Shown: one piece after another, positions 6,986 through 64,000 of the stretch
How the letters are laid out: each line of letters starts with the position of its first letter
Position numbering within the stretch: the first letter of the stretch is position 1
Assembly: GCF_900103185.1 (NCBI RefSeq)
Contig: NZ_FNJD01000011.1
Location: forward strand, 1 to 64,000
Direction: 5' to 3'
Source: Sulfitobacter litoralis
Lineage (GTDB): Bacteria > Pseudomonadota > Alphaproteobacteria > Rhodobacterales > Rhodobacteraceae
Length of the DNA: 64,000 nucleotides
Notes under the pieces: model-generated
Told to the model about the DNA's origin: nothing
The model's database searches: none
The model's input: the letters and a program-made list of their open reading frames with translations, nothing else
Translations under genes and position numbers: made by a program

Positions 6986-7831
6986 TTATCCGACGGCGAT
7001 ATTGTCGATCAGCCGCACACCGGCCAACCAAGCGGCTGCAAGCAAGCGTGCAGGACGGTCGGGCGTGGTCATCAGTTCCAACCGGTCGGCAGATCGCAAA
7101 TCAAGGTATTCCACCTGCGTAAATCCCGCGCGTTCAATCCGCTTTACCGCCACCGCGCGCAAGACTTCAAGATTGCCCCCCGCGCGCAGCCCCTCTGACA
7201 TCTCCTCCATCGCGCGGTGCAATTCTGGTGCCCACGTACGGGCGCGATCCGACAGCATCAGGTTGCGCGACGACATGGCCAACCCGTCTTCTTCGCGAAT
7301 GGTCGGACAACCGACGACCTCGATCGGTAGGTCCAGATCGCGGGCCAGACGGGTGACCACCTGCAGCTGCTGATAGTCCTTTTCGCCAAAGAACGCCTTG
7401 TCGGCTTGGGTCTGGGTGAACAGTTTGGTCACGATGGTCGCAACCCCGTCAAAGTGCCCTGTCCGATGCGCACCGCACAACCCTTGGGTGATGCCATCGA
7501 CGGATACGGTCGTCGCAAAGCCATCGGGGTACATCTGCGCCCCATCAGGCACGTAAACCACATCCGCCTTCAACGAGATCAGCTTGCGCGCGTCCTCTTC
7601 TTCGGTGCGGGGATAGTTCTTGTAATCATCGGGGTTGTTGAACTGCTTAGGGTTGATGAAGATCGTCACGATCACGCGGTCGCAGGCCGCTTTTGCAGCC
7701 CGTACGAGGCTCAGGTGCCCCTGATGCAGCGCACCCATCGTGGGCACGACGGCGACGCTTTCGCCCGCGGCTTTCCAGCCGGCGACTTTGCTGCGCAGTT
7801 CAACCAGCGTGCGGATAATTTCGGGTGTCAT
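6986..7831 (-). CDS. panC: Pantothenate synthetase
   Basis: A 281-residue enzyme condensing pantoate and beta-alanine with ATP in coenzyme A synthesis. Family motifs are [15 protein letters not shown] (HIGH-type nucleotide site) near residue 30, [18 protein letters not shown] and the KMSKS-like [11 protein letters not shown]. Length is normal. Its ATG overlaps the TGA of panB by four bases, so the pair is coupled in the order panB-panC. Confidence 0.97.
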
Positions 7832-8655: not shown

Positions 8656-8810
8656 CTTGGCGGTCCTTTGTATAAGGTACGTCATTGCAATCACTGTGGC
8701 GCATGCACAGGCATGGGCCGGCTTGCGCATGCTTCTAGACCAAAACATCGCGGTTGAGGTAGCAAAACCCGAAAGAATTTACGCGTGTCGCAGCGTCAGT
8801 CGATTTAATG

Positions 8811-9755
8811 CTACTCTGACGGGATGGGCGGGACGGTCTGCGCACGGTGTCCCCTAGGTATGGTCAACACCAGCAGGCACACCACGACCAGTCCTACACC
8901 GATCCACCCCAAGGCGGGCAAGCGTTCGCCCACAATGACCACGGCCAGCACCGCCGCAACCACCGGTTCAATCAGCGTCAGGGTGGTGGCCGTACTGGCC
9001 CGCACCCGTGACAGCCCGTACCCGAAACAGATGTAGCCCAGAAACATCGGCACAAACGCCATATAAAGCCCGACCGCCGCATTGCCCCATGAGGCCAGCA
9101 GCGGGCCACCCGTTACGATCAGCACGGGCATGAGAAACATTCCTCCCAGACCAAAGGTCGCGCCCATCACGACAGATGACCGCACGCCACGCAACATCAC
9201 CGACCGCGCCGTCCAGCTATACAGCGCATAGGTAAAGCCCCCCAGCAGGCCAAGCGCCACGCCAAGCGGGACAGATGAACCGCCCACAGCGCTGTGGCTG
9301 CTCCCCTCGGCCAGACAAATCAACACCATCCCCGCAACGCCCGACAGCGCGCCGACGGTCCAGCGCAGGGTCAGCAAGGATCGTTCCATCACATATTCAA
9401 TAAGAGCGGCAAACAAGGGCGCGGTGCCGATGGTGACGACGGTGCCGATGGTCACCCCCGCCAGCCGCATCGCGCTGTAAAAGGCCAGCGGATAAATCAT
9501 GACGGCCAAGGCCCCCAGCACAAGAAGCCCGCGGTGCTGCCAAAGTGCGGCGCGGGCCCGCGCAATGCCGCGCAATGCCAGCAAAGCCTGTCCGAGACCG
9601 CCAATCCCCATAGCAGCAGCCCCGATGGCAGCCGCGCTGACATCGGGGGCGAAAGTCGCGGCCGTGCCTGTCGTGCCCCAAACGGTACCCGCGAACAGTA
9701 CCCCCGCGATGCCACGCGCATTACTTTGACCGCCTGCATTGGCCGCGTTTGTCAT
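8811..9755 (-). CDS. DMT-superfamily (EamA) transporter
   Basis: A 314-residue membrane protein with ten predicted helices arranged as two EamA repeats: residues about 15-130 with GTVWGTTGTAA and the second repeat from LGVALGLLGGFTYALY. The end ERLPALGWIGVGLVV is typical of EamA exporters of amino acids and metabolites. The start is uncertain: 9755 gives a sensible N-terminus, while 9797 would add 14 polar residues. It is not in an obvious operon and the substrate is unknown. Confidence 0.85.
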   Translation of the reverse strand: MTNAANAGGQSNARGIAGVLFAGTVWGTTGTAATFAPDVSAAAIGAAAMGIGGLGQALLALRGIARARAALWQHRGLLVLGALAVMIYPLAFYSAMRLAGVTIGTVVTIGTAPLFAALIEYVMERSLLTLRWTVGALSGVAGMVLICLAEGSSHSAVGGSSVPLGVALGLLGGFTYALYSWTARSVMLRGVRSSVVMGATFGLGGMFLMPVLIVTGGPLLASWGNAAVGLYMAFVPMFLGYICFGYGLSRVRASTATTLTLIEPVVAAVLAVVIVGERLPALGWIGVGLVVVCLLVLTIPRGHRAQTVPPIPSE

Positions 9756-9820: not shown

Positions 9821-10861
9821 TTATTCAGAGTGCAACCGCGACACGATGCTGCTGGCTGTGACCGTGCCGATCGTCTCTCCGTCTTCGACCACGGGGATCG
9901 CCTGTCCATCGTCGCCAATCTTGCCAATCAGTTCCGACACCGGCGTTTCCGCGGCAACGGCCCCGTCCGAGCTGGCGGCCGGTGGCCCCATCACATCGCG
10001 TGCCGTCAGCACGCCAAGCGGATTCATATTGGCCACAAACTCCGCGACATATTCTGACGCGGGGTTCGAGAAAATCTCGCGCGGGGTGCCGCATTGCACG
10101 ATGCGCCCACCTTCCATGATGGCGATGCGCCCGCCGAGCTTGAAGGCTTCGTCCAGATCGTGGCTGACGAAGATGATCGTGCGTTTAAGCTCGCGTTGCA
10201 GATCAAGCAGCTCGTCCTGCAAGCGGGTACGGATCAACGGATCAAGGGCAGAGAAAGGCTCGTCCATCAGCAGGATCGGGGCTTCGGTGGCAAAGGCGCG
10301 GGCCAGCCCCACACGTTGCTGCATGCCGCCCGACAGCTCGCTGACCTTGCGGTCGGCCCAATCGGCCAGACCGACCAGCTTCAGTTGCGCCTCTGCCCGT
10401 TCAAGACGTTCGCGTTTGGGGACATCCGCCAGTTCCAGCCCAAGCGCCACGTTGTCACGCACGGTGCGCCACGGCAACAATCCGAACTGCTGGAAAACCA
10501 TTGACACACATTCACGGCGCACACGGCGCAGATCAGCGGCAGAGCTTGCGGTGACATCACAGCTCCAGTCGCCATCATGCACCCGCACCGATCCGCGCAC
10601 CAGCGGGTTCAGCCCGTTGACTGCACGCAGCAAGGTGGACTTGCCCGAGCCGGACAAGCCCATCAGAACAAGGATCTCGCCCTGTTTGACGTCAAGCGTG
10701 CAGTTATGCACCCCAAGGATCTGGCCGGTTTCGACCTCGATCTCGGCGCGGTCTTTGCCTGCATCCATCAAGGGCAGCGCCTTGGCCGGCTTCGTGCCGA
10801 ACACGATGGATACGTTGTCGAATTCAACGGCGTTTGCGGGGTTGTTCATTTGATCGCTCAT
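9821..10861 (-). CDS. choV: Choline ABC transporter ATP-binding protein
   Basis: A 346-residue ProV/OpuAA-type ATPase: Walker A GLSGSGKST, signature LSGGMQQR, Walker B ILLMDEPFSALD and switch VSHDLDEAF. It is followed by a C-terminal regulatory tail (residues about 270-346) ending in a CBS-like segment AIPVVEDGETIGTVTASS. An insertion around residues 25-45 (LMDAGKDRAEIEVETGQILG) is typical of the choline (ChoV) subgroup. It overlaps choW by ATGA. With choW and choX it forms a high-affinity quaternary-amine importer, and choline is the best guess. Confidence 0.9.
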   Translation of the reverse strand: MSDQMNNPANAVEFDNVSIVFGTKPAKALPLMDAGKDRAEIEVETGQILGVHNCTLDVKQGEILVLMGLSGSGKSTLLRAVNGLNPLVRGSVRVHDGDWSCDVTASSAADLRRVRRECVSMVFQQFGLLPWRTVRDNVALGLELADVPKRERLERAEAQLKLVGLADWADRKVSELSGGMQQRVGLARAFATEAPILLMDEPFSALDPLIRTRLQDELLDLQRELKRTIIFVSHDLDEAFKLGGRIAIMEGGRIVQCGTPREIFSNPASEYVAEFVANMNPLGVLTARDVMGPPAASSDGAVAAETPVSELIGKIGDDGQAIPVVEDGETIGTVTASSIVSRLHSE

Positions 10862-11691
10862 TTACGTGTCACCCGTAGCATCCGGTCCAGCATGATGGCG
10901 ACCACCACAATGATCAGCCCCGATTCAAAGCCAAGCCCCGTGTTCACCTGATTAAGCGCCCGCACCACCGGCACGCCCAGACCATCGGCCCCCACGAGGG
11001 CGGCGATCACCACCATCGACAGCGACAGCATGATAGTCTGGTTCAGACCGGTCATAATCTGTGGCAACGCATAGGGCAGCTCGATCTTCCACAGGGTCTG
11101 GCTGGGCTTCGCGCCAAAGGCCTGCGCGGCCTCGAGCAGCGCCTTGGGGGTCGATGCGATACCAAGCTGCGTCAGCCTGATCGGTGCCGGCAGCACAAAG
11201 ATCACCGTCGCGATCAGCCCCGGCACCATGCCGATGCCGAAAAAGACAATCGCGGGAATGAGATAGACGAAGGTGGGCAGCGTCTGCATCAGATCGAGCA
11301 CCGGTGCCATATAGCGATACATCCGCGGGCGGTGCGCCGCGGCGATGCCGATGGGGACGCCGACGCCCATACACACCACACAGGCCGACAGCACCAGCGT
11401 CAGGCTTTCGGTCGTTTCCTCCCAATAGTCCTGATTGAGGATGAACAAAAACCCCACCACGATCAGCAACGGGGTTTTCCAGTTGCGCTGGATCGCCCAT
11501 GTCAGCGCGCCGAAGACGGCGATGATGATCAGCGGATGCGGCGTTTGCAGCACCCAAAGGATTGCGTCAATCAACCACTCCATCGCGACGGCCAGCCCGT
11601 CGAACAGCCACCCGGCGTTGATCAGCAACCAATCAAAAATCGCCTCTGCGGCGTCATCAATCGGGATCTTATTGTCGGTGAGCCAGTTCAT
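10858..11691 (-). CDS. choW: Choline ABC transporter permease
   Basis: A 277-residue ProW-type inner-membrane permease. After an N-terminal amphipathic stretch there are about six to seven helices. The binding-protein-dependent transport motif appears as EAAQAFGAKPSQTLWKIELP, followed by GLNQTIMLSLSMVVIAALVGADGLG, which is diagnostic of glycine-betaine/choline permeases. It lies between choX (separated by a hairpin) and choV (four-base overlap). Confidence 0.92.
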   Translation of the reverse strand: MNWLTDNKIPIDDAAEAIFDWLLINAGWLFDGLAVAMEWLIDAILWVLQTPHPLIIIAVFGALTWAIQRNWKTPLLIVVGFLFILNQDYWEETTESLTLVLSACVVCMGVGVPIGIAAAHRPRMYRYMAPVLDLMQTLPTFVYLIPAIVFFGIGMVPGLIATVIFVLPAPIRLTQLGIASTPKALLEAAQAFGAKPSQTLWKIELPYALPQIMTGLNQTIMLSLSMVVIAALVGADGLGVPVVRALNQVNTGLGFESGLIIVVVAIMLDRMLRVTRK

Positions 11692-12877: not shown

Positions 12878-13761
12878 GCGGCGCAAGCCCTGCGTGGATC
12901 GGCGTCGATGTCTCAGACGGACATGTGCATTTGTGGGTGCATGATCCCCGTGGTGACGTGCTGGCACAGGCCGACGGGCCAGTTGCCGATTTGCCCGCCG
13001 AGGCGGGGTTTGTTGCCGCACTGACCGACCTGCTGTCGCCCTATTTGTCAGATCACCAGCGCTTGCCGGTGATTGTGGCTGGGCTGCCTGCCCTGCCCGC
13101 ACACAGTCTGAGGCCGGTGCCAGCGCTGCCCGTTGACGGGGTTTTGGGTCTGGATGCCGACGACCCACGCTTGGATTTACGCGCAGTGCCGGGGCTGAAA
13201 CAGGCCACTCCGCCGCAGATGATGCAAGGCCCCGAAACTGCGATCGCGGGCTACCTGCAAGCACTGCCAGAGTTTGACGGCGTAATCTGTACTCTTGATG
13301 CACAGTCTACATGGAGCCACATCAGCGCCCGCGAGGTGGTCAGCTTTCAAACATTCATGACACCGGCGATGGCACTCCAGCTCGGCGGTGCCGCCCCCCT
13401 GTCGCAGGCCGTTGCCGGCGGGACGCTGATTGAAGAGACGTTTGACACGGCCGTGAATGACATCATGGCCCGCCCTCAAAGTTTTGGCACCGCCCTTGCC
13501 GAGACTTCTGCGCAAGCCGCCCTTGAGGGGGCCAGTCCCGATACAGGCTGGTCGCGGCTGATGGGGGCTCTTATCGGGCTCGAGCTTGCCGGATCGCGCC
13601 CCTACTGGCTGGGCCGCGAAGTCGTGATCCTATCGGATAGCCCGCTTTCGGCACTCTATACACGCGCGCTCAAAGCGCAGGGTGTCTTGGCACAAGATGT
13701 CTCGCGCAGGGAGCAACTGCGCGCAGGGCTTCAGGTCTGTGCAGAGGCAAGCGTCAACTGA
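12874..13761 (+). CDS. dgoK: 2-dehydro-3-deoxygalactonokinase family protein
   Basis: A 295-residue sugar kinase of the DGOK family, which phosphorylates 2-keto-3-deoxy-galactonate in the De Ley-Doudoroff galactose pathway. It starts with IGVDVSDGHVHLWVHD (phosphate 1 motif equivalent) and contains the family-specific MMQGPETAIAGYLQ segment and GTLIEETF. No DgoA aldolase, dehydratase or transporter gene is adjacent, so the physiological sugar cannot be fixed from context. The GTG start at 12874 overlaps a leader ORF. Confidence 0.8.
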   Translation: MSGASPAWIGVDVSDGHVHLWVHDPRGDVLAQADGPVADLPAEAGFVAALTDLLSPYLSDHQRLPVIVAGLPALPAHSLRPVPALPVDGVLGLDADDPRLDLRAVPGLKQATPPQMMQGPETAIAGYLQALPEFDGVICTLDAQSTWSHISAREVVSFQTFMTPAMALQLGGAAPLSQAVAGGTLIEETFDTAVNDIMARPQSFGTALAETSAQAALEGASPDTGWSRLMGALIGLELAGSRPYWLGREVVILSDSPLSALYTRALKAQGVLAQDVSRREQLRAGLQVCAEASVN

Positions 13762-13787
13762 CGAGACGGGCACACCTAAGGGGAAGC

Positions 13788-13806
13788 CCCCGGCCTTAGG
13801 CCGGGG
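13788..13806. terminator. Bidirectional hairpin between dgoK and dppF
   Basis: CCCCGGCC (13788-13795) and GGCCGGGG (13799-13806) form an eight-base GC stem with the dppF stop codon in the loop. There is no T-run, but its place between two convergent genes fits a transcription end. Confidence 0.5.
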
Positions 13807-14767
13807 TGCCACCGTTCTCGGGAAAGAAGCAGGCCGCCGCATGGTGGCCTTGGGTCAGTTCGGGCCGTTCAGAACGGCATTTATCCTGCACCTTCCAACA
13901 CCGTGGCGCAAAGGGGCACCCGTCGGGAATGGCCAAGGGCGATGGCAGTTCTCCCTCCAGCTTGATCCGTTCTTTCGCGGCACGGGGGTCTGCTTGCGGC
14001 GTCGCCGACAGCAGCGCTTTGGCATAAGGATGAAACGGCGTGCCGAACACATCCTCGCGGCTACCGCGTTCGACGGCACGGCCCAGATACATCACGATCA
14101 CCTCGTCGGCGACGTGACGTACAACGCTAAGGTCATGCGAGATGAACAGATAGGCCAGTTGCAGACGTTCCTGCAGATCGACCAGCAGGTTCAACACCGA
14201 GCTCTGGATCGACAGGTCCAGCGCGGACACAGGCTCGTCCAGCACCAGCACTTTGGGGTCCAGCATCAACGCCCGCGCAATCGCGATCCGCTGGCGTTGC
14301 CCGCCGGAGAACATATGCGGATAGCGGTCAAAATGCTCAGGCCGCAAACCCACCAACCCCAGCATCTCGCGCGCCTTGGCAGTACGCTCCTTGCTGCTCA
14401 TGTCGGGGCGGTTGATCTTGAGAGGTTCTTCGAGGATCGCGCCGATCCGCTGGCGCGGGTTGAGCGAGCCATAGGGGTCTTGGAACACGATCTGCACCGA
14501 TTTACGCAGCGATGCCCAGTCTTCGCGGACCACGGGTTTGCCATCCAGTGTCAGCGATCCGGCGGTCGGGTCCTCGATCATCGTGACCATCCGCGCGAGC
14601 GTCGATTTCCCGCAGCCGCTTTCGCCTACGACGGCCAGCGTCTTGCCGGGATACAGCGCGAAATCGAGCCCGCCGACGGCCTTGAGCGTGCGCGGCTTGC
14701 GAAACAGCCCGCCGCCGACTTCGTAGTGACGCTCTAGCGCCGTTGCAGTCATCACAGGTGCGGTCAT
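13796..14767 (-). CDS. dppF: Dipeptide/oligopeptide ABC transporter ATPase (DppF/OppF type)
   Basis: A 323-residue ATPase with Walker A GESGCGKST, the typical VFQDPYGSLNPRQRIG Q-loop region, signature FSGGQRQR, Walker B VLVLDEPVSALD, and the C-terminal oligopeptide-transporter extension with cysteines (CPFAPRCWKVQDKC) common to this family, often an Fe-S or metal site. The start at 14767 overlaps the dppD stop (ATGA). It is the last gene of the six-gene transport and peptidase operon. Confidence 0.93.
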   Translation of the reverse strand: MTAPVMTATALERHYEVGGGLFRKPRTLKAVGGLDFALYPGKTLAVVGESGCGKSTLARMVTMIEDPTAGSLTLDGKPVVREDWASLRKSVQIVFQDPYGSLNPRQRIGAILEEPLKINRPDMSSKERTAKAREMLGLVGLRPEHFDRYPHMFSGGQRQRIAIARALMLDPKVLVLDEPVSALDLSIQSSVLNLLVDLQERLQLAYLFISHDLSVVRHVADEVIVMYLGRAVERGSREDVFGTPFHPYAKALLSATPQADPRAAKERIKLEGELPSPLAIPDGCPFAPRCWKVQDKCRSERPELTQGHHAAACFFPENGGTPA

Positions 14768-21469: not shown

Positions 21470-22276
21470 ATGACTATGCCCCCACCTCTGCTGGTGTTTA
21501 CCGACCTTGATGGCACGTTGCTGTCGCATACCTCCTATCGCTGGGACGCGGCCACACAGGCGCTGGATATACTGCGCGATATCGGTGCGGCGCTGGTGAT
21601 CGCCAGCTCCAAATCTGCCCCGGAGATCATAGAGATTCGCGCCCAATTGGGCTGGACCAATTGCCCCGCGATCATTGAAAACGGCGCAGGCATTCTGCCC
21701 CCCGAGAGCACCGACACACCCAAAACGGAGACCTATGTCCGGCTGCGCCGCGCACTGGACAGCTTGCCCGCCAACCTGCGTGACCCGTTCTGCGGGTTCG
21801 GTGATATGACGGTGGCGCAGATCGCGCAGATCACGGGCCTGTCGCACAGCGGTGCCGCTAACGCGGCGGAGCGGGCCTTTTCTGAACCTGGCATCTGGTC
21901 CGGCAGCGCCCAACTGCGCGCCGCATTTATCGACGCCTTGCACGACCACGACATCCATGCCCGCGAAGGCGGCAGATTTCTCACACTCTCCTACGGGCGC
22001 ACCAAGGCCGACCAGATGGCCGCGCTGACCGATGCCTTTGCGCCGCGCCATACGCTCGCGCTTGGCGATGCCCCCAACGACATAGAGATGCTGCAAGCGG
22101 CAGATTTCGGCGTCATCGTTGCCAACCCTCACCGTGACCCCCTGCCCCCGATGCCCGGCGAAGACACGGGCCGGATCACCCGTACCGCCCTTGCCGGCCC
22201 CGCTGGGTGGAACACCGCCGTGCTTGATATGATCGCGCGTCTGAATCTGAACGAAGGAGCGACAAAGCATGGCTGA
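21470..22276 (+). CDS. HAD-IIB phosphatase, glucosyl/mannosyl-3-phosphoglycerate phosphatase type
   Basis: A 268-residue HAD phosphatase with the nucleophile motif FTDLDGTLL (Asp12, Asp14), a C2-type cap, and the metal motif LALGDAPNDIEML near residue 200. IENGAGIL is typical of the mannosyl-3-phosphoglycerate phosphatase family. It overlaps the downstream glycosyl-3-phosphoglycerate synthase by eight bases, so it should dephosphorylate that product to glucosylglycerate (or mannosylglycerate), a compatible solute. Confidence 0.85.
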   Translation: MTMPPPLLVFTDLDGTLLSHTSYRWDAATQALDILRDIGAALVIASSKSAPEIIEIRAQLGWTNCPAIIENGAGILPPESTDTPKTETYVRLRRALDSLPANLRDPFCGFGDMTVAQIAQITGLSHSGAANAAERAFSEPGIWSGSAQLRAAFIDALHDHDIHAREGGRFLTLSYGRTKADQMAALTDAFAPRHTLALGDAPNDIEMLQAADFGVIVANPHRDPLPPMPGEDTGRITRTALAGPAGWNTAVLDMIARLNLNEGATKHG

Positions 22277-59416: not shown

Positions 59417-59588
59417 ATCTTCCGGTCCCGTCGCTTCTTGGTAATTCCCTGCAATCTATCGCATGGGGCCGCCAAGGAAAGGACCCCACCGTGATATTGA
59501 CAACCCAGACCACCGACGCCAAACAGGCCGAACGCATATAACCCGCAACCGGGCGTCTCGTAGGCGCCAAACCGACGAGGAGGCCCGA

Positions 59589-61538
59589 ATGGCCCAGATC
59601 ACCCTCACCCTTCCCGATGGCAACGCACGTCAGTACGACGCAGGTATCACTGCGGGCGACGTGGCCAACGACATCTCCAAATCGCTTGGCAAAAAAGCGA
59701 TCAGCGCCACCGTGGACGGTGCGCATTTTGATCTGGCCTGGCCGATCAACGCAGATGCCGACATCGCGATCCACACCATGGCCGACGAAGCGCAAGCGAA
59801 CGAGCTGGTGCGCCACGACCTTGCCCACATCATGGCCCGCGCCGTGCAGGACCTGTGGCCCGATACCAAGGTCACCATCGGCCCCGTCATCAAGGACGGC
59901 TGGTACTATGACTTTGACCGCAAGGAATCCTTCACCCCCGAAGACCTTGGCCTGATCGAAAAGAAGATGAAGGAAATCATCAACAAGCGTGACCCCGTCC
60001 GGACCGAGGTCTGGGACCGCGCCCACGCGATCAAGCATTACGAGGATTTGGGCGAACCTTATAAGGTCGAGCTGATCAACAGCATCCCCGGCAACGAGCC
60101 GCTGCGCATGTACTGGCACGGCGACTGGCAAGACCTCTGCCGTGGCCCGCACCTGCAACACACCGGCCAAGTCCCCGGCGACGCCTTCAAACTGATGTCC
60201 ATCGCGGGCGCTTATTGGCGCGGCGACAGCGACCGCGCGATGCTGCAACGGATTTACGGCGTGGCCTTCACCGGCAAGGAAAAGCTCAAAGCGCACCTGA
60301 ACATGCTCGAAGAGGCCGCCAAACGCGACCACCGCAAGCTGGGCCGCGAGATGGACCTGTTCCACATGCAAGAAGAAGCGCCGGGCCAGATCTTCTGGCA
60401 CCCCAACGGCTGGCACATCTATACCGAGCTTCAGGATTACATGCGCCGCAAACAACGCGCCGGCGGCTATGTCGAGGTGAACACACCGCAGGTCGTGGAC
60501 CGTAAACTCTGGGAAGCCTCCGGCCACTGGGAGAAATACCAAGACCACATGTTCATCGTCGAAGTGGACGAGGAACATGCCCGCGAAAAATCGGTCAACG
60601 CGCTGAAACCGATGAACTGCCCCTGCCACGTGCAAATCTTTAACCAGGGTCTGAAATCCTACCGCGACCTGCCCCTGCGCATGGCCGAATTCGGGTCGTG
60701 CAACCGCTATGAACCCTCGGGCGCGCTGCACGGGATCATGCGGGTGCGCGGCTTTACGCAGGACGACGGCCATATTTTCTGCGCCGAAGACCAGATCGAA
60801 GCCGAGACCGCCAAGTTCATCGAATTTCTGTCCGGCATCTACAAAGACCTCGGGTTTGAAAACTTCAGCGTCAAATTCTCGGACCGGCCTGAAAAACGCT
60901 CCGGCTCGGACGAGGTCTGGGACAAAGCCGAGGCCGCGTTGCTGTCTGCCACCCGCGCAGCTGGCATCGAACCCACGCTCAACCCCGGCGAAGGCGCGTT
61001 CTATGGCCCGAAACTGGAATTTGTGCTGACCGACGCCATCGGCCGCGACTGGCAATGTGGCACCCATCAGGTGGACTTCGTGTTGCCCGAACGGCTTGAT
61101 GCGACCTATATCGGGTCGGATGGCGCGAAACACCGCCCCGTTATGCTGCACCGCGCGACATTGGGATCATTCGAACGTTTTATCGGCATCCTGATCGAAG
61201 AACACGCAGGCAAACTGCCCTTCTGGCTGGCCCCGCGTCAGGTTGTCGTGGCCGCCATCACCTCAGAGGCCGATGACTACGTCCACGAGGTCGTCGCCAC
61301 TCTTAAGGCACAAGGCGTCCGCGCCGAGGCGGATGTCCGCAACGAGAAAATCAACTACAAGGTCCGTGAACATTCGGTCGGCAAAGTGCCGGTGATCCTT
61401 GCGGTCGGTGGCCGCGAGGTCGAAGAGAAAACCGTATCGGTGCGTCGTCTGGGCGAAAAGCAAACCTCCGTTCAGGCACTATCGGACGTAGCGAACGCCT
61501 TGGGCATCGAAGCCACACCGCCCGATCTGCGCGGCTGA
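59589..61538 (+). CDS. thrS: Threonine-tRNA ligase
   Basis: A 649-residue class II synthetase: a TGS domain ([19 protein letters not shown]), the editing domain with [12 protein letters not shown] and RGPHLQHTG, the catalytic core with [12 protein letters not shown] (zinc Cys), [16 protein letters not shown] and the C-terminal anticodon domain. The ATG at 59589 has GAGGAGG; the frame continues upstream but only as unrelated sequence. Confidence 0.98.
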
Positions 61539-61556
61539 AACCTGTAACAAACCTCT

Positions 61557-61581
61557 CGGGGCGCAACGATCTTGCGCCCCG
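61557..61581 (+). terminator. Hairpin after thrS
   Basis: CGGGGCGCAA and TTGCGCCCCG pair over ten bases with a CGATC loop, 18 bases after the stop. No T-run follows. Confidence 0.6.
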
Positions 61582-61757
61582 ATCCTGTCACTATGTTTCA
61601 AAATTGCGCCTTACGACGCGGGATTCTCACGCATTGTTACAAAAAAACCGGCGATTTCCTGACGCCTCTGTGACACACTTTGATGTGAGTAGCTTTGTCG
61701 CACCCCCCGCGGCTTAATGTCCTTATCGACACGCAACCCAATCAGGAGGAAACACCA

Positions 61758-62060
61758 ATGTCCAACACAATGAAAACCCTCGCCGTTGCCGGCGCTGTTG
61801 CCGCAGCCATGTCCGCTCATGGCACAACAGCCAATGCGGCATCCAAAGAAAAATGCTATGGCGTGGCACTTGCCGGTCAGAATGATTGCGCAGCAGGCCC
61901 CGGCACCACATGCGCCGGCACATCCGTCACTGATTACCAAGGCAACGCCTGGACGCTGGTTGACGCAGGCACCTGCGCCGAGATGGAGCTGCCCGAAATG
62001 GCTGACGGCTCCGAGCGTATGGGTTCGCTCGAAGCGCTGGACCGCGATCTGCCAGCCTAA
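61758..62060 (+). CDS. bufA: Bufferin precursor (BufA1, DUF2282 family)
   Basis: A 100-residue precursor. A Sec signal peptide ([23 protein letters not shown]) is followed by the core with four cysteines at 33, 44, 52 and 73, in [18 protein letters not shown] and GTTCAG, the typical pattern of DUF2282 bufferins. The tail is acidic. Bufferins are copper-sequestering RiPPs in which the partner BufB/BufC converts inner cysteines to thiooxazoles before export to the periplasm. A strong AGGAGGA site and the hairpin after the gene suggest high expression. Confidence 0.92.
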
Positions 62061-62084
62061 GGCCCCTTGCGGCTTAAACCCCTC

Positions 62085-62118
62085 GCCTGTGCAGCACGGA
62101 GCATCCGGCTGCGCAGGC
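62085..62118 (+). promoter_or_regulatory. Stable hairpin between bufA and bufB
   Basis: GCCTGTGCAGC (62085-62095) and GCTGCGCAGGC (62108-62118) form an 11-bp stem with one G-U pair and a 12-base loop. No T-run follows, so it is more likely an mRNA-stabilising or partially terminating element that makes precursor exceed the maturation enzymes. Confidence 0.7.
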
Positions 62119-62151
62119 CCCTTACGCGACCCCTAAGATAGGGAGCCCCCC

Positions 62152-63000
62152 ATGCCAGACGGAACCGCCCGTTTCGCCACCCTGCCCGCCAGCCCCGGCG
62201 TTGGCTATAAACCCCAGCATTTCAAAGACCTGCAAGACGATCCTGGTCCGGTACAGTGGATCGAAATCCATGCAGAGAATTACATGGGCGACGGCGGCCG
62301 TCCCCTTGCGCAGCTGCGCGCGCTGTCCGAAAAGTTCGCGCTGTCAGTCCATGGTGTCGGCCTCAGCATCGGTGGTGAAATGCCGCTCGATCGTGACCAT
62401 CTGGCCCGTCTGAAAAAGCTCTGCGACTGGGCAAAGCCCGCCAGTTTTTCCGAACATCTGGCCTGGTCCACCCATGAGAGCGAATTTTTGAACGACCTGT
62501 TGCCCTTGCCCTATACGGAATCCACCCTGTCCCGCGTGGCCGACCACATCAGTCAGGTTCAGGACACAATTGGGCGTCAAATGCTGCTGGAAAACCCCTC
62601 CAGCTACCTCGCCTTTGATGAATCCACCTTGTCTGAAACCGACTTTTTAGCCGAACTTACCCATCGAACCTCCTGCGGTTTATTGCTGGATGTCAACAAT
62701 GTGTTCATTTCGGCCCAAAACCTTGGTCTCGCGCCCCGCGACTATATCGACGCCTATCCGGTCGACGCCGTGGGCGAGCTTCACGTTGGCGGCCACGAAG
62801 AAGACAGCGTTGGTTTCAACCAGCCGCTTTTGATCGACAGCCACAGTCGCCCCGTTGTCGACCCCGTCTGGGATTTGCTGGCCTATACGCTGGACCGCAC
62901 CGGCCCCAAGCCCGTGCTGGTGGAATGGGACAATGACGTGCCCGACTGGCCGACCCTGCGCACAGAGGCAGAGCGTGCGGCGGATGTGCTGACCCGATGA
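62152..63000 (+). CDS. bufB: MNIO-family (DUF692) maturase BufB
   Basis: A 282-residue TIM-barrel iron enzyme of the multinuclear non-heme-iron oxidative family. Conserved metal-site residues are visible: VHGVGLSIGG (His67), SEHLAW (His102), LLENPS (Glu147), LLDVNNVF (Asp180, Asn182/183), ELHVGGH (His211, His215) and IDSHSRPVVDPVW. It converts Cys residues of the BufA precursor to thiooxazole. Its stop overlaps the bufC start by ATGA. Confidence 0.94.
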   Translation: MPDGTARFATLPASPGVGYKPQHFKDLQDDPGPVQWIEIHAENYMGDGGRPLAQLRALSEKFALSVHGVGLSIGGEMPLDRDHLARLKKLCDWAKPASFSEHLAWSTHESEFLNDLLPLPYTESTLSRVADHISQVQDTIGRQMLLENPSSYLAFDESTLSETDFLAELTHRTSCGLLLDVNNVFISAQNLGLAPRDYIDAYPVDAVGELHVGGHEEDSVGFNQPLLIDSHSRPVVDPVWDLLAYTLDRTGPKPVLVEWDNDVPDWPTLRTEAERAADVLTR

Positions 63001-63746
63001 CCACGCTGCAACGGTTTCGTACGCCCCTGCTGGACCCGACGCAGGACCGCCCCGAGGGGCTGCGCGGTGCCGCTGGCGCGCCCGCCGACACGCGCTATGA
63101 CGTCTACCGCAACAACGTCACCCATTCCTTAATTGCAGCGCTGCACAGCGCTTTTCCCTTGGTGCTCAAAGTATTAGGCACGCAGAATTTCGACCGGCTG
63201 GCCCCTGCCTACGTCCGTGCGCACCCGCCGACCTCTCCGCTCATGATGCATTACGGCGCTGATTTTCCCGACTTTCTCGCCGCACAACCGCAATTGTCTA
63301 AAATGGGTTACCTGCCCGACTGCGCCCGCCTCGACCTTGCCTTGCGCCGATCCTACCACGCGGCTGACAGTGCGCCCTTTGACCTCGAAACGTTCCAGCA
63401 GCTTACGCCAGAAGAGATGATGCAAACACAGCTCATCCCCGCCCCTGCGACGGTTTTGCTGCGGTCAAGCTGGCCGCTTTTTGATATCTGGCGGTTCAAC
63501 ATGCAGGCCGATGCCCCCAAGCCGCAAATGCAGGCCCAAGACGTGTTGATCACCCGCCCCGAGTTTGACCCCGCCCCGCATCTTTTGCCCCCCGGCGGCG
63601 GTGATTGGTTCGCCGCATTGGCCGAGGGCGCAACGCTTGATCAGGCCCATGACACCGCGCTGGCGCTTGTGCCTGATTTCGATCTTGGTGCGGCCTTGGG
63701 ACTGTGCTTTGCAACTGGCGCATTTCGCGCAAAGAACGGCGGATAA
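62997..63746 (+). CDS. bufC: BufC partner protein (DUF2063 family)
   Basis: A 249-residue protein, N-terminal DUF2063 region with DVYRNNVTHSLIAALHSAFP. Homologues bind precursor leaders and are required with the DUF692 enzyme for RiPP maturation. The C-terminal half contains WPLFDIWRFNM. Coupled to bufB by four bases. Confidence 0.9.
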   Translation: MTTLQRFRTPLLDPTQDRPEGLRGAAGAPADTRYDVYRNNVTHSLIAALHSAFPLVLKVLGTQNFDRLAPAYVRAHPPTSPLMMHYGADFPDFLAAQPQLSKMGYLPDCARLDLALRRSYHAADSAPFDLETFQQLTPEEMMQTQLIPAPATVLLRSSWPLFDIWRFNMQADAPKPQMQAQDVLITRPEFDPAPHLLPPGGGDWFAALAEGATLDQAHDTALALVPDFDLGAALGLCFATGAFRAKNGG

Positions 63747-63747
63747 G

Positions 63748-64000
63748 ATGCTGAAGACCCTCACCCTTTATGACCGCGCCACCCACTGGATTTCAGCGCA
63801 GGACTGGCTGCTGCCGACGCTTGCACGGTTTCTATTTGCTGCCGTCCTTATGCAGTATTTCTTTGCCTCCGGCCTTACCAAACTCGACGGGTTGGTGACG
63901 CTGAGCACCGGTGCCTATGTCCAGATTTTCCCCCGTGCGTTCGAGGCGGCGGGCTATGACGCGACAGCGCTTTCGCCGCTGCACGGGTTGGTGGCCTATG
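63748..64000 (+). CDS. bufD: DoxX-family membrane protein (BufD), 3' truncated by window end
   Basis: The first 84 residues are visible: a soluble N-terminus, then a membrane helix with LPTLARFLFAAVLMQYFFAS and LTKLDG, the DoxX pattern. The ATG is two bases after the bufC stop, so it is the fourth gene of the operon, as in other bufferin clusters. The stop lies beyond 64000. Confidence 0.85.
   Translation, partial: MLKTLTLYDRATHWISAQDWLLPTLARFLFAAVLMQYFFASGLTKLDGLVTLSTGAYVQIFPRAFEAAGYDATALSPLHGLVAY

Follow-up and report, generated by a model that had tools for sequence, protein, structure and literature searches.

Bufferins have been described as a large and widespread family of copper-binding peptides (PMC12452194). 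The regulatory genes reported in clusters of the Buf1 type are sigma and NrsF genes (PMC12452194), and in the available part of that text the words promoter, Rhodobacter, Roseobacter and thrS do not occur. Transcription of the homologous Caulobacter operon depends on the ECF sigma factor sigma-F, whose anti-sigma factor is NrsF, acting at the motif GTAACC-N16-CGAA (PMC3511200). Copper induces this operon, and mutation of sigF leads to copper sensitivity (PMC8224329). The product, bufferin 1, has been assigned thiooxazoles (stated in PMC12668002). These accounts follow the available parts of the cited texts.

Here, we examine a locus of Sulfitobacter litoralis (GCF_900103185.1, contig NZ_FNJD01000011.1, positions 1-64,000 of the forward strand) by means of profile searches, structure comparison and a survey of related genomes. 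The whole 64-kb stretch is called the window below, and bufA, bufB, bufC and the 5′ part of bufD occupy 61758-64000 of it. We will argue that the gene set, judged from its sequence, is ordinary, a further member of the Buf1 bufferins, and that what is new here is the control of the operon, which is probably exerted by a putative regulator other than the usual sigma-factor switch.

The bufABCD genes and their surroundings

The genes and associated elements, except those of the bufA promoter region, are as follows.

59463-61538, plus strand: thrS, threonine-tRNA ligase, outside the operon (TIGR00418, 655.8 bits; the true start may lie further in)
61556-61582, no strand assigned (reported on minus): GC-rich hairpin 3′ of thrS with an 11-pair stem, a possible terminator (weak; 1 observed, where shuffled sequence would give 0.9)
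61744-61749, plus strand: AGGAGG, ribosome-binding site of bufA, read from the sequence
61758-62060, plus strand: bufA, bufferin-1 precursor of 100 aa (DUF2282, 85.7 bits, cut-off 22.4)
62085-62118, plus strand: bufA-bufB intercistronic hairpin (z −3.1 for 62055-62151)
62152-63000, plus strand: bufB, MNIO bufferin maturase (PF05114, MbnB_TglH_ChrH, 341.5 bits; NCBIfam equivalog MNIO_BufB, 362.9 bits, cut-off 310)
62997-63746, plus strand: bufC, DUF2063 partner protein with an RRE-type domain (DUF2063, 83.5 bits)
63748-64278, plus strand, of which the window holds 63748-64000: bufD, DoxX-family membrane protein of 176 aa (DoxX, 37.5 bits at full length, cut-off 23.6)

The original prediction described a bufABCD operon behind thrS, and both parts of this description are borne out by the profile matches: DUF2282, DUF692/MNIO and DUF2063 genes are present in the order bufABC, followed by the DoxX gene. 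The rest of bufD was found by extending the sequence to the right, as had been proposed; the full gene, which ends at 64278, is also seen at 8749-9279 of the stored locus L002, and the 84 BufD residues inside the window have by themselves no match in Pfam or NCBIfam. The DUF2282 and MNIO profiles each have one match in the whole genome (completeness 100). The genes had also been called coupled. This is the case for bufB and bufC, which overlap by 4 bases, and for bufC and bufD, which are 1 base apart, but not for bufA and bufB, between which there is a gap of 91 bases containing a strong hairpin.

The hairpin is likely an intercistronic stabiliser or an attenuator. A structure of this kind would be expected where an abundant transcript for the precursor has to be kept apart from the enzyme transcript. 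In the relatives described below, the corresponding gaps have a mean fold z of −2.6, with z < −2 in 52 of 78 (40 shuffles each; 2 of the 80 loci were left out by length and N filters). Another hairpin, of the type CATCGCC...GGCGATG, is visible by eye between promoter and start codon in some 5′ leaders (L047, L068, L086 and others).

The precursor falls within DUF2282, a family outside which, according to the original prediction, it should not lie. BufA has four cysteines, Cys33, Cys44, Cys52 and Cys73, and their relative spacing is identical in 81 of 81 precursors (window included; one sequence is cut at its start). A putative Sec signal peptide is suggested by eye, from K6, a hydrophobic stretch and a cleavage position near ANA/AS. 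None of the NCBIfam models matches BufA. The conserved His/Asp/Glu motifs of BufB, which we take to be the ligand positions, align with those of the DUF692, TglH and MbnB structures (3bww, 8hci, 7dz9). BufB relatives also occur on plasmids: at E < 1e-20, PLSDB holds 349 records with a match, including 73 from Escherichia, 18 from Klebsiella and 8 from Salmonella, and 338 of the 349 are below 60% identity.

Since the search of the BufC sequence against solved structures gave nothing significant, its fold was predicted. The model (pLDDT 94.5, from 43 sequences) matches chains of 8hci and 8hi7 (TglHI) and of 3dee (NGO1945) with probability 1.00; the chain matched in 8hci and 8hi7 would be TglI. 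The match to the MbnABC complexes is weaker, and that to the RRE protein TbiB1 alone (5v1v) is weak, with an E value of 5.

Family models, solved structures and the predicted fold taken together support the assignment of the locus as a putative Buf1 bufferin operon. It is conceivable that the genes are instead MNIO relatives making a different product, or one that handles a metal other than copper. BufC and BufD fall under the NCBIfam cut-offs of HvfC and HvfX, respectively, which could be taken in this sense, although those models describe a sister family. BufB, on the other hand, is above the cut-off of the MNIO_BufB equivalog, and BufA is a DUF2282 protein with the four-cysteine pattern described for Buf1, and we regard a different product or metal as most improbable.

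Relatives were collected by a scan of named genomes with BufB, from which the best 80 of at least 579 loci were kept; these are called the best-80 loci. The closest among the matches listed is that of Sulfitobacter sp. HGT1, with a BufB identity of 79%, and those loci that carry a genus name are presumably all of the roseobacter type. Matches to BufA, BufB, BufC and BufD are found in all of the best 80 of at least 579 loci. Within the stored loci, thrS lies upstream in 78 of these 80, an ArsC-like gene is present in 77 (counting that of L026, which is far away) and a cold-shock gene, csp, in 72; thrS-buf-arsC-csp is therefore a common block in this clade. The loci without thrS upstream are L075, which starts inside bufA, and L037, which has other genes there.

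Some further observations concern these surroundings. In Tritonibacter mobilis (L263), the thrS-buf-arsC-csp block is located on a 1.2-Mb replicon listed as a plasmid, and thrS is unusual on a plasmid. Many loci have a minus-strand gene of 122 aa between bufD and the ArsC-like gene (10142-10510 in L054), for which only a DUF4064 match below cut-off is obtained. Downstream of the operon in L002, a 286-aa gene (10734-11594) with a lower GC content by eye lies between the csp and thyX-like genes.

A conserved double palindrome upstream of bufA

Upstream of bufA, a conserved block and, behind it, promoter-like elements were found.

61659-61692, plus strand: predicted bufA operator (30.5-bit matrix score), with palindrome 1 at 61660-61673 and palindrome 2 at 61675-61688
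61690-61695, plus strand: predicted −35 region, weak (column conservation over 118 sites)
61714-61719, plus strand: predicted −10 element TTAATG (TAnnnT-like column conservation near this offset, 118 sites)

The operator consists of 29 bases (61660-61688) that form two tandem pseudo-palindromes, TnACG-N4-CGTGA and nCACG-N4-CGTGA, spaced 15 bases from centre to centre, and the block abuts the predicted −35 box. The matrix used to score it (36.8 bits) was trained on 80 upstream sequences, each 200 bases or longer, the site of the window included; the training stretch of L091 did not contain the operator site. Among the listed titles and abstract openings on bufferins, DUF2282, DUF692 and DUF2063, none reports this operator.

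The block is found next to bufA in all 79 of the best-80 loci (best 80 of at least 579) for which upstream DNA is available. Elsewhere, scores are low: no other place in the 64-kb window exceeds 1.4 bits, positions away from the operator reach at most 5.2 bits across 1.30 Mb of the best-80 loci, and upstream sequences shuffled by mononucleotide (1620 shuffles) give at most 6.1 bits. In the L091 locus, from Shimia thalassica, the operator lies upstream of the first of two tandem bufA copies; this pair (7225-7530 and 7668 onward) stands behind a single operator.

The exact pattern has one match in the S. litoralis genome, and allowing up to two mismatches adds 2, against 3 in the control. It is present in 66 of 295 genomes of the family (Rhodobacteraceae), once per genome, with 0 for the reversed control. 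A DUF2282 match is found in 65 of these 66, the exception being genome G112, and bufA lies just downstream in 29 of the 30 exact-pattern loci inspected, the remaining one again being G112. There (L102, ca position 1500), the exact double palindrome lies beside a gene that by eye is aldehyde-dehydrogenase-like, in a genome without a DUF2282 match; this occurrence may be due to chance or to another use. A looser pattern gave 6 matches in 385 genomes of the class (5 of the own family), 4 of them in the own family and 2 outside it (2 of 380 Alphaproteobacteria), with 3 in the control. The operator is thus, in this sample, a trait of Rhodobacteraceae.

Columns beyond the operator were examined with the 118 non-redundant sites out of 141. 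At a fixed distance from the operator there are two conserved stretches, TkG (columns 31-33) and a TAnnnT-like element (columns 55-60), a pattern consistent with a weak −35 region directly after the operator, an 18-base spacer and then a −10 element. Other sites show a further, weak half-site at columns −9 to −5, which the window lacks.

Two other readings of the block have to be weighed here. Repressors commonly bind as dimers to tandem palindromes, and this block, which abuts the −35 region, could be the operator of a repressor that is released under stress. However, both palindromes are located upstream of the predicted −35 and leave the core promoter uncovered, and the upstream region of bufA in the window has no consensus promoter, so we consider repression unlikely. 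Activation is preferred over repression because of the operator position alone.

In the second reading, the block would itself serve as promoter for an alternative (ECF) sigma factor whose gene lies at another place in the genome. Here the genome offers candidates, with 15 Sigma70 region-4 matches, 10 of which are above cut-off, and CGTGA is like some ECF −10 boxes. Four half-sites at fixed spacing, together with a separate TAnnnT element, are nevertheless unlike a two-box promoter. Genes for ECF-type sigma factors are often self-controlled, yet each genome with the exact pattern has a single copy of it. We judge this reading improbable, and return below to that of a putative activator bound at a tandem operator.

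Two types of bufA promoter in the family

It had been stated that no ECF sigma gene is visible in the window and that regulation might for this reason differ from known cases. Both statements agree with our results. The contig has a single match to sigma region 4 (21737-21877, 22.9 bits), which is under cut-off and lies in a frame that is HAD-phosphatase-like (name by eye). NrsF has 0 matches in the genome, with a positive Caulobacter control, and in the window the best match to GTAACC-N16-CGAA within 260 bases ahead of bufA has 4 mismatches of 10; in the bufA upstream sequences of the named loci, this motif does no better than in shuffles. In place of a sigma-F promoter there is the conserved operator described above.

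The same comparison was made across the family. Among the 295 genomes, 211 have DUF2282 and 45 have NrsF, in 40 cases above cut-off. Scoring 105 bufA upstream sequences (30 + 75 loci) with the operator matrix gave 61 that reach 8 bits on either strand and 44 that stay below; NrsF above cut-off accompanies 0 of the 61 and 25 of the 44. When the scored sequences are joined with the exact-pattern genomes (G110 is in both), 169 of the 211 DUF2282 genomes are covered, and NrsF is present in 7 of the other 42. In this joined set, NrsF is above cut-off in 1 of 125 operator-positive genomes vs 25 of 44 operator-negative ones (Fisher p 6e-17, uncorrected for relatedness and too small, because related genomes are not independent). 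G155 has both the operator and NrsF, with NrsF on another contig, and the operator-positive genomes G129, G228 and G244 have NrsF matches below cut-off.

The sigma-F motif divides the genomes along the same line. With one mismatch, GTAACC-N16-CGAA precedes bufA in 14 of the 25 genomes with NrsF vs 0 of the 80 others scored; in the remaining 11 with NrsF, at least two positions deviate from the motif. Matches with two mismatches (6 of 25 NrsF genomes, 11 of 61 with the operator, 7 of 19 with neither) mean little, because they are frequent in genomes without NrsF too. On two Paracoccus plasmids (L265, L266), sigma and DUF1109 genes come after bufABCD.

In 19 of the 44 operator-negative genomes, NrsF is below cut-off or absent. 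Ten of these 19 have degenerate or shifted operator copies, and the other nine do not. The proximal palindrome scores at least 8.4 bits in nine of the 19, against at most 5.7 in 80 control stretches of 560 bases, and G058 and G140 (the latter already among those nine) reach 15.9 bits with the retrained full matrix. The spacing variants suggest that the two palindromes are separate dimer sites.

Comparison of the genomes thus shows that the bufferin operon of Rhodobacteraceae comes with two alternative types of predicted promoter, sigma-F/NrsF or tandem-operator. All in all, we find it likely that the locus studied here is a Buf1 operon in a family with these two types, and that it is expressed from a tandem operator and a weak sigma-70-like promoter with the help of a putative activator. 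The best reading of the pattern is that sigma-F/NrsF control was exchanged for a putative DNA-binding activator. Such a sharp, near-exclusive split, with a sigma-F promoter on one side and a private operator on the other, constitutes a clean case of regulatory exchange.

Candidate regulators and comparison with known systems

We now consider which protein might bind the operator. Between thrS and csp, or up to a fixed limit, 224 extra reading frames of at least 60 aa (many surely spurious) were collected from the best-80 loci. Among the 10 of these 224 that were run against Pfam (8 frames from 7 loci, plus 2), no match to a transcription-factor family was obtained, and one of the 10 is the second bufA of Shimia thalassica. 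In L105, which has no thrS upstream, a frame that by eye is dnaE-like takes its place, and the upstream frame of L037 has no Pfam match. The Pseudorhodobacter locus L264 has no operator, and a LysR gene lies some kb upstream.

Two copper-related candidates were also considered. A CueR gene is present elsewhere in the genome (contig C24; 163.3 bits, cut-off 147.4), but control by CueR was rejected, since the operator of a MerR-type regulator is expected between −35 and −10, whereas the conserved block sits upstream of the predicted −35. RegA is described as a copper-binding regulator (PMC9147068); in the available part of that text, "consensus" and "binding motif" have 0 occurrences.

The nearest regulator gene recognised belongs to the MarR family; located several kb downstream, it is present in 41 of the best 80 of at least 579 loci (in three it is cut by the locus end). 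In S. litoralis it is 7.8 kb downstream, outside the window (C32:72096-72593), and in Tritonibacter (L263) it occupies 13568-14065, 3.4 kb downstream of bufD. The gene is found in 270 of the 295 family genomes. These include at least 72 of the 84 without DUF2282 and nearly all genomes of the sigma-F type, and for this reason the occurrence of the gene does not follow that of the operator. The MarR protein could act on bufA as a global regulator, but the presence of the gene gives no support to this.

The question whether the regulator is dedicated or global leaves the operator itself unaffected. In the dedicated case, sigma-F/NrsF in roseobacter-type lineages would have been replaced by a transcription factor that has the bufA promoter as its sole strong target and binds as two dimers to the tandem 14-bp palindromes; to this we assign a chance just short of even. 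In the global case, a widespread protein such as a MarR-family member or a response regulator would have one of its strong sites at bufA, its other sites being single or degenerate palindromes. The scanned frames between thrS and csp (10 of 224), in which no regulator was recognised, the wide distribution of the MarR-family gene, also near the operon, and the spacing variants with their suggestion of separate dimer sites all speak for a global regulator. Against it are the single double site per genome, with nothing near its score in the loci scanned, and the occurrence of the MarR gene in genomes that lack DUF2282 or are of the sigma-F type. The global case is a serious possibility, which we hold with somewhat less than even confidence.

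With a putative activator of either kind, a scheme for the whole operon can be drawn, in which the steps of maturation are taken from the family. Most likely, two dimers of the activator would bind the operator and, upon copper or a related stress, may recruit RNA polymerase. BufA would be made with a Sec signal and presented by BufC to the iron enzyme BufB, which would convert its two central cysteines to thiooxazoles. After export, the modified BufA would bind excess periplasmic copper, with BufD assisting at the membrane. A 34-bp operator probe could be used to fish out the putative metal or stress regulator in these abundant marine bacteria.

Finally, the locus can be set against the known systems. 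The bufferin 1 operon of Caulobacter (CC3254-3257 / CCNA_03363-03366) has the same order of DUF2282, DUF692, DUF2063 and DoxX genes, as far as described in the available parts of PMC3511200 and PMC8224329, but it is of the sigma-F/NrsF type, whereas here there is neither NrsF nor a sigma-F promoter, and a double-palindrome operator is present. The oxazolin/captophorin clusters (HvfABC, FonABC) are alike in having an MNIO enzyme with a partner, thiooxazoles and a link to copper detoxification (PMC12668002, in the part available); their precursors have EGKCG repeats, while the precursor here is a DUF2282 protein. The Paracoccus plasmid clusters belong, by name, to the same bacterial family and share the bufABCD order, but their sigma and DUF1109 (NrsF-type) genes, and the lack of an operator (best scores −14.5 and −10.6 bits), set them apart from S. 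litoralis with its tandem operator.
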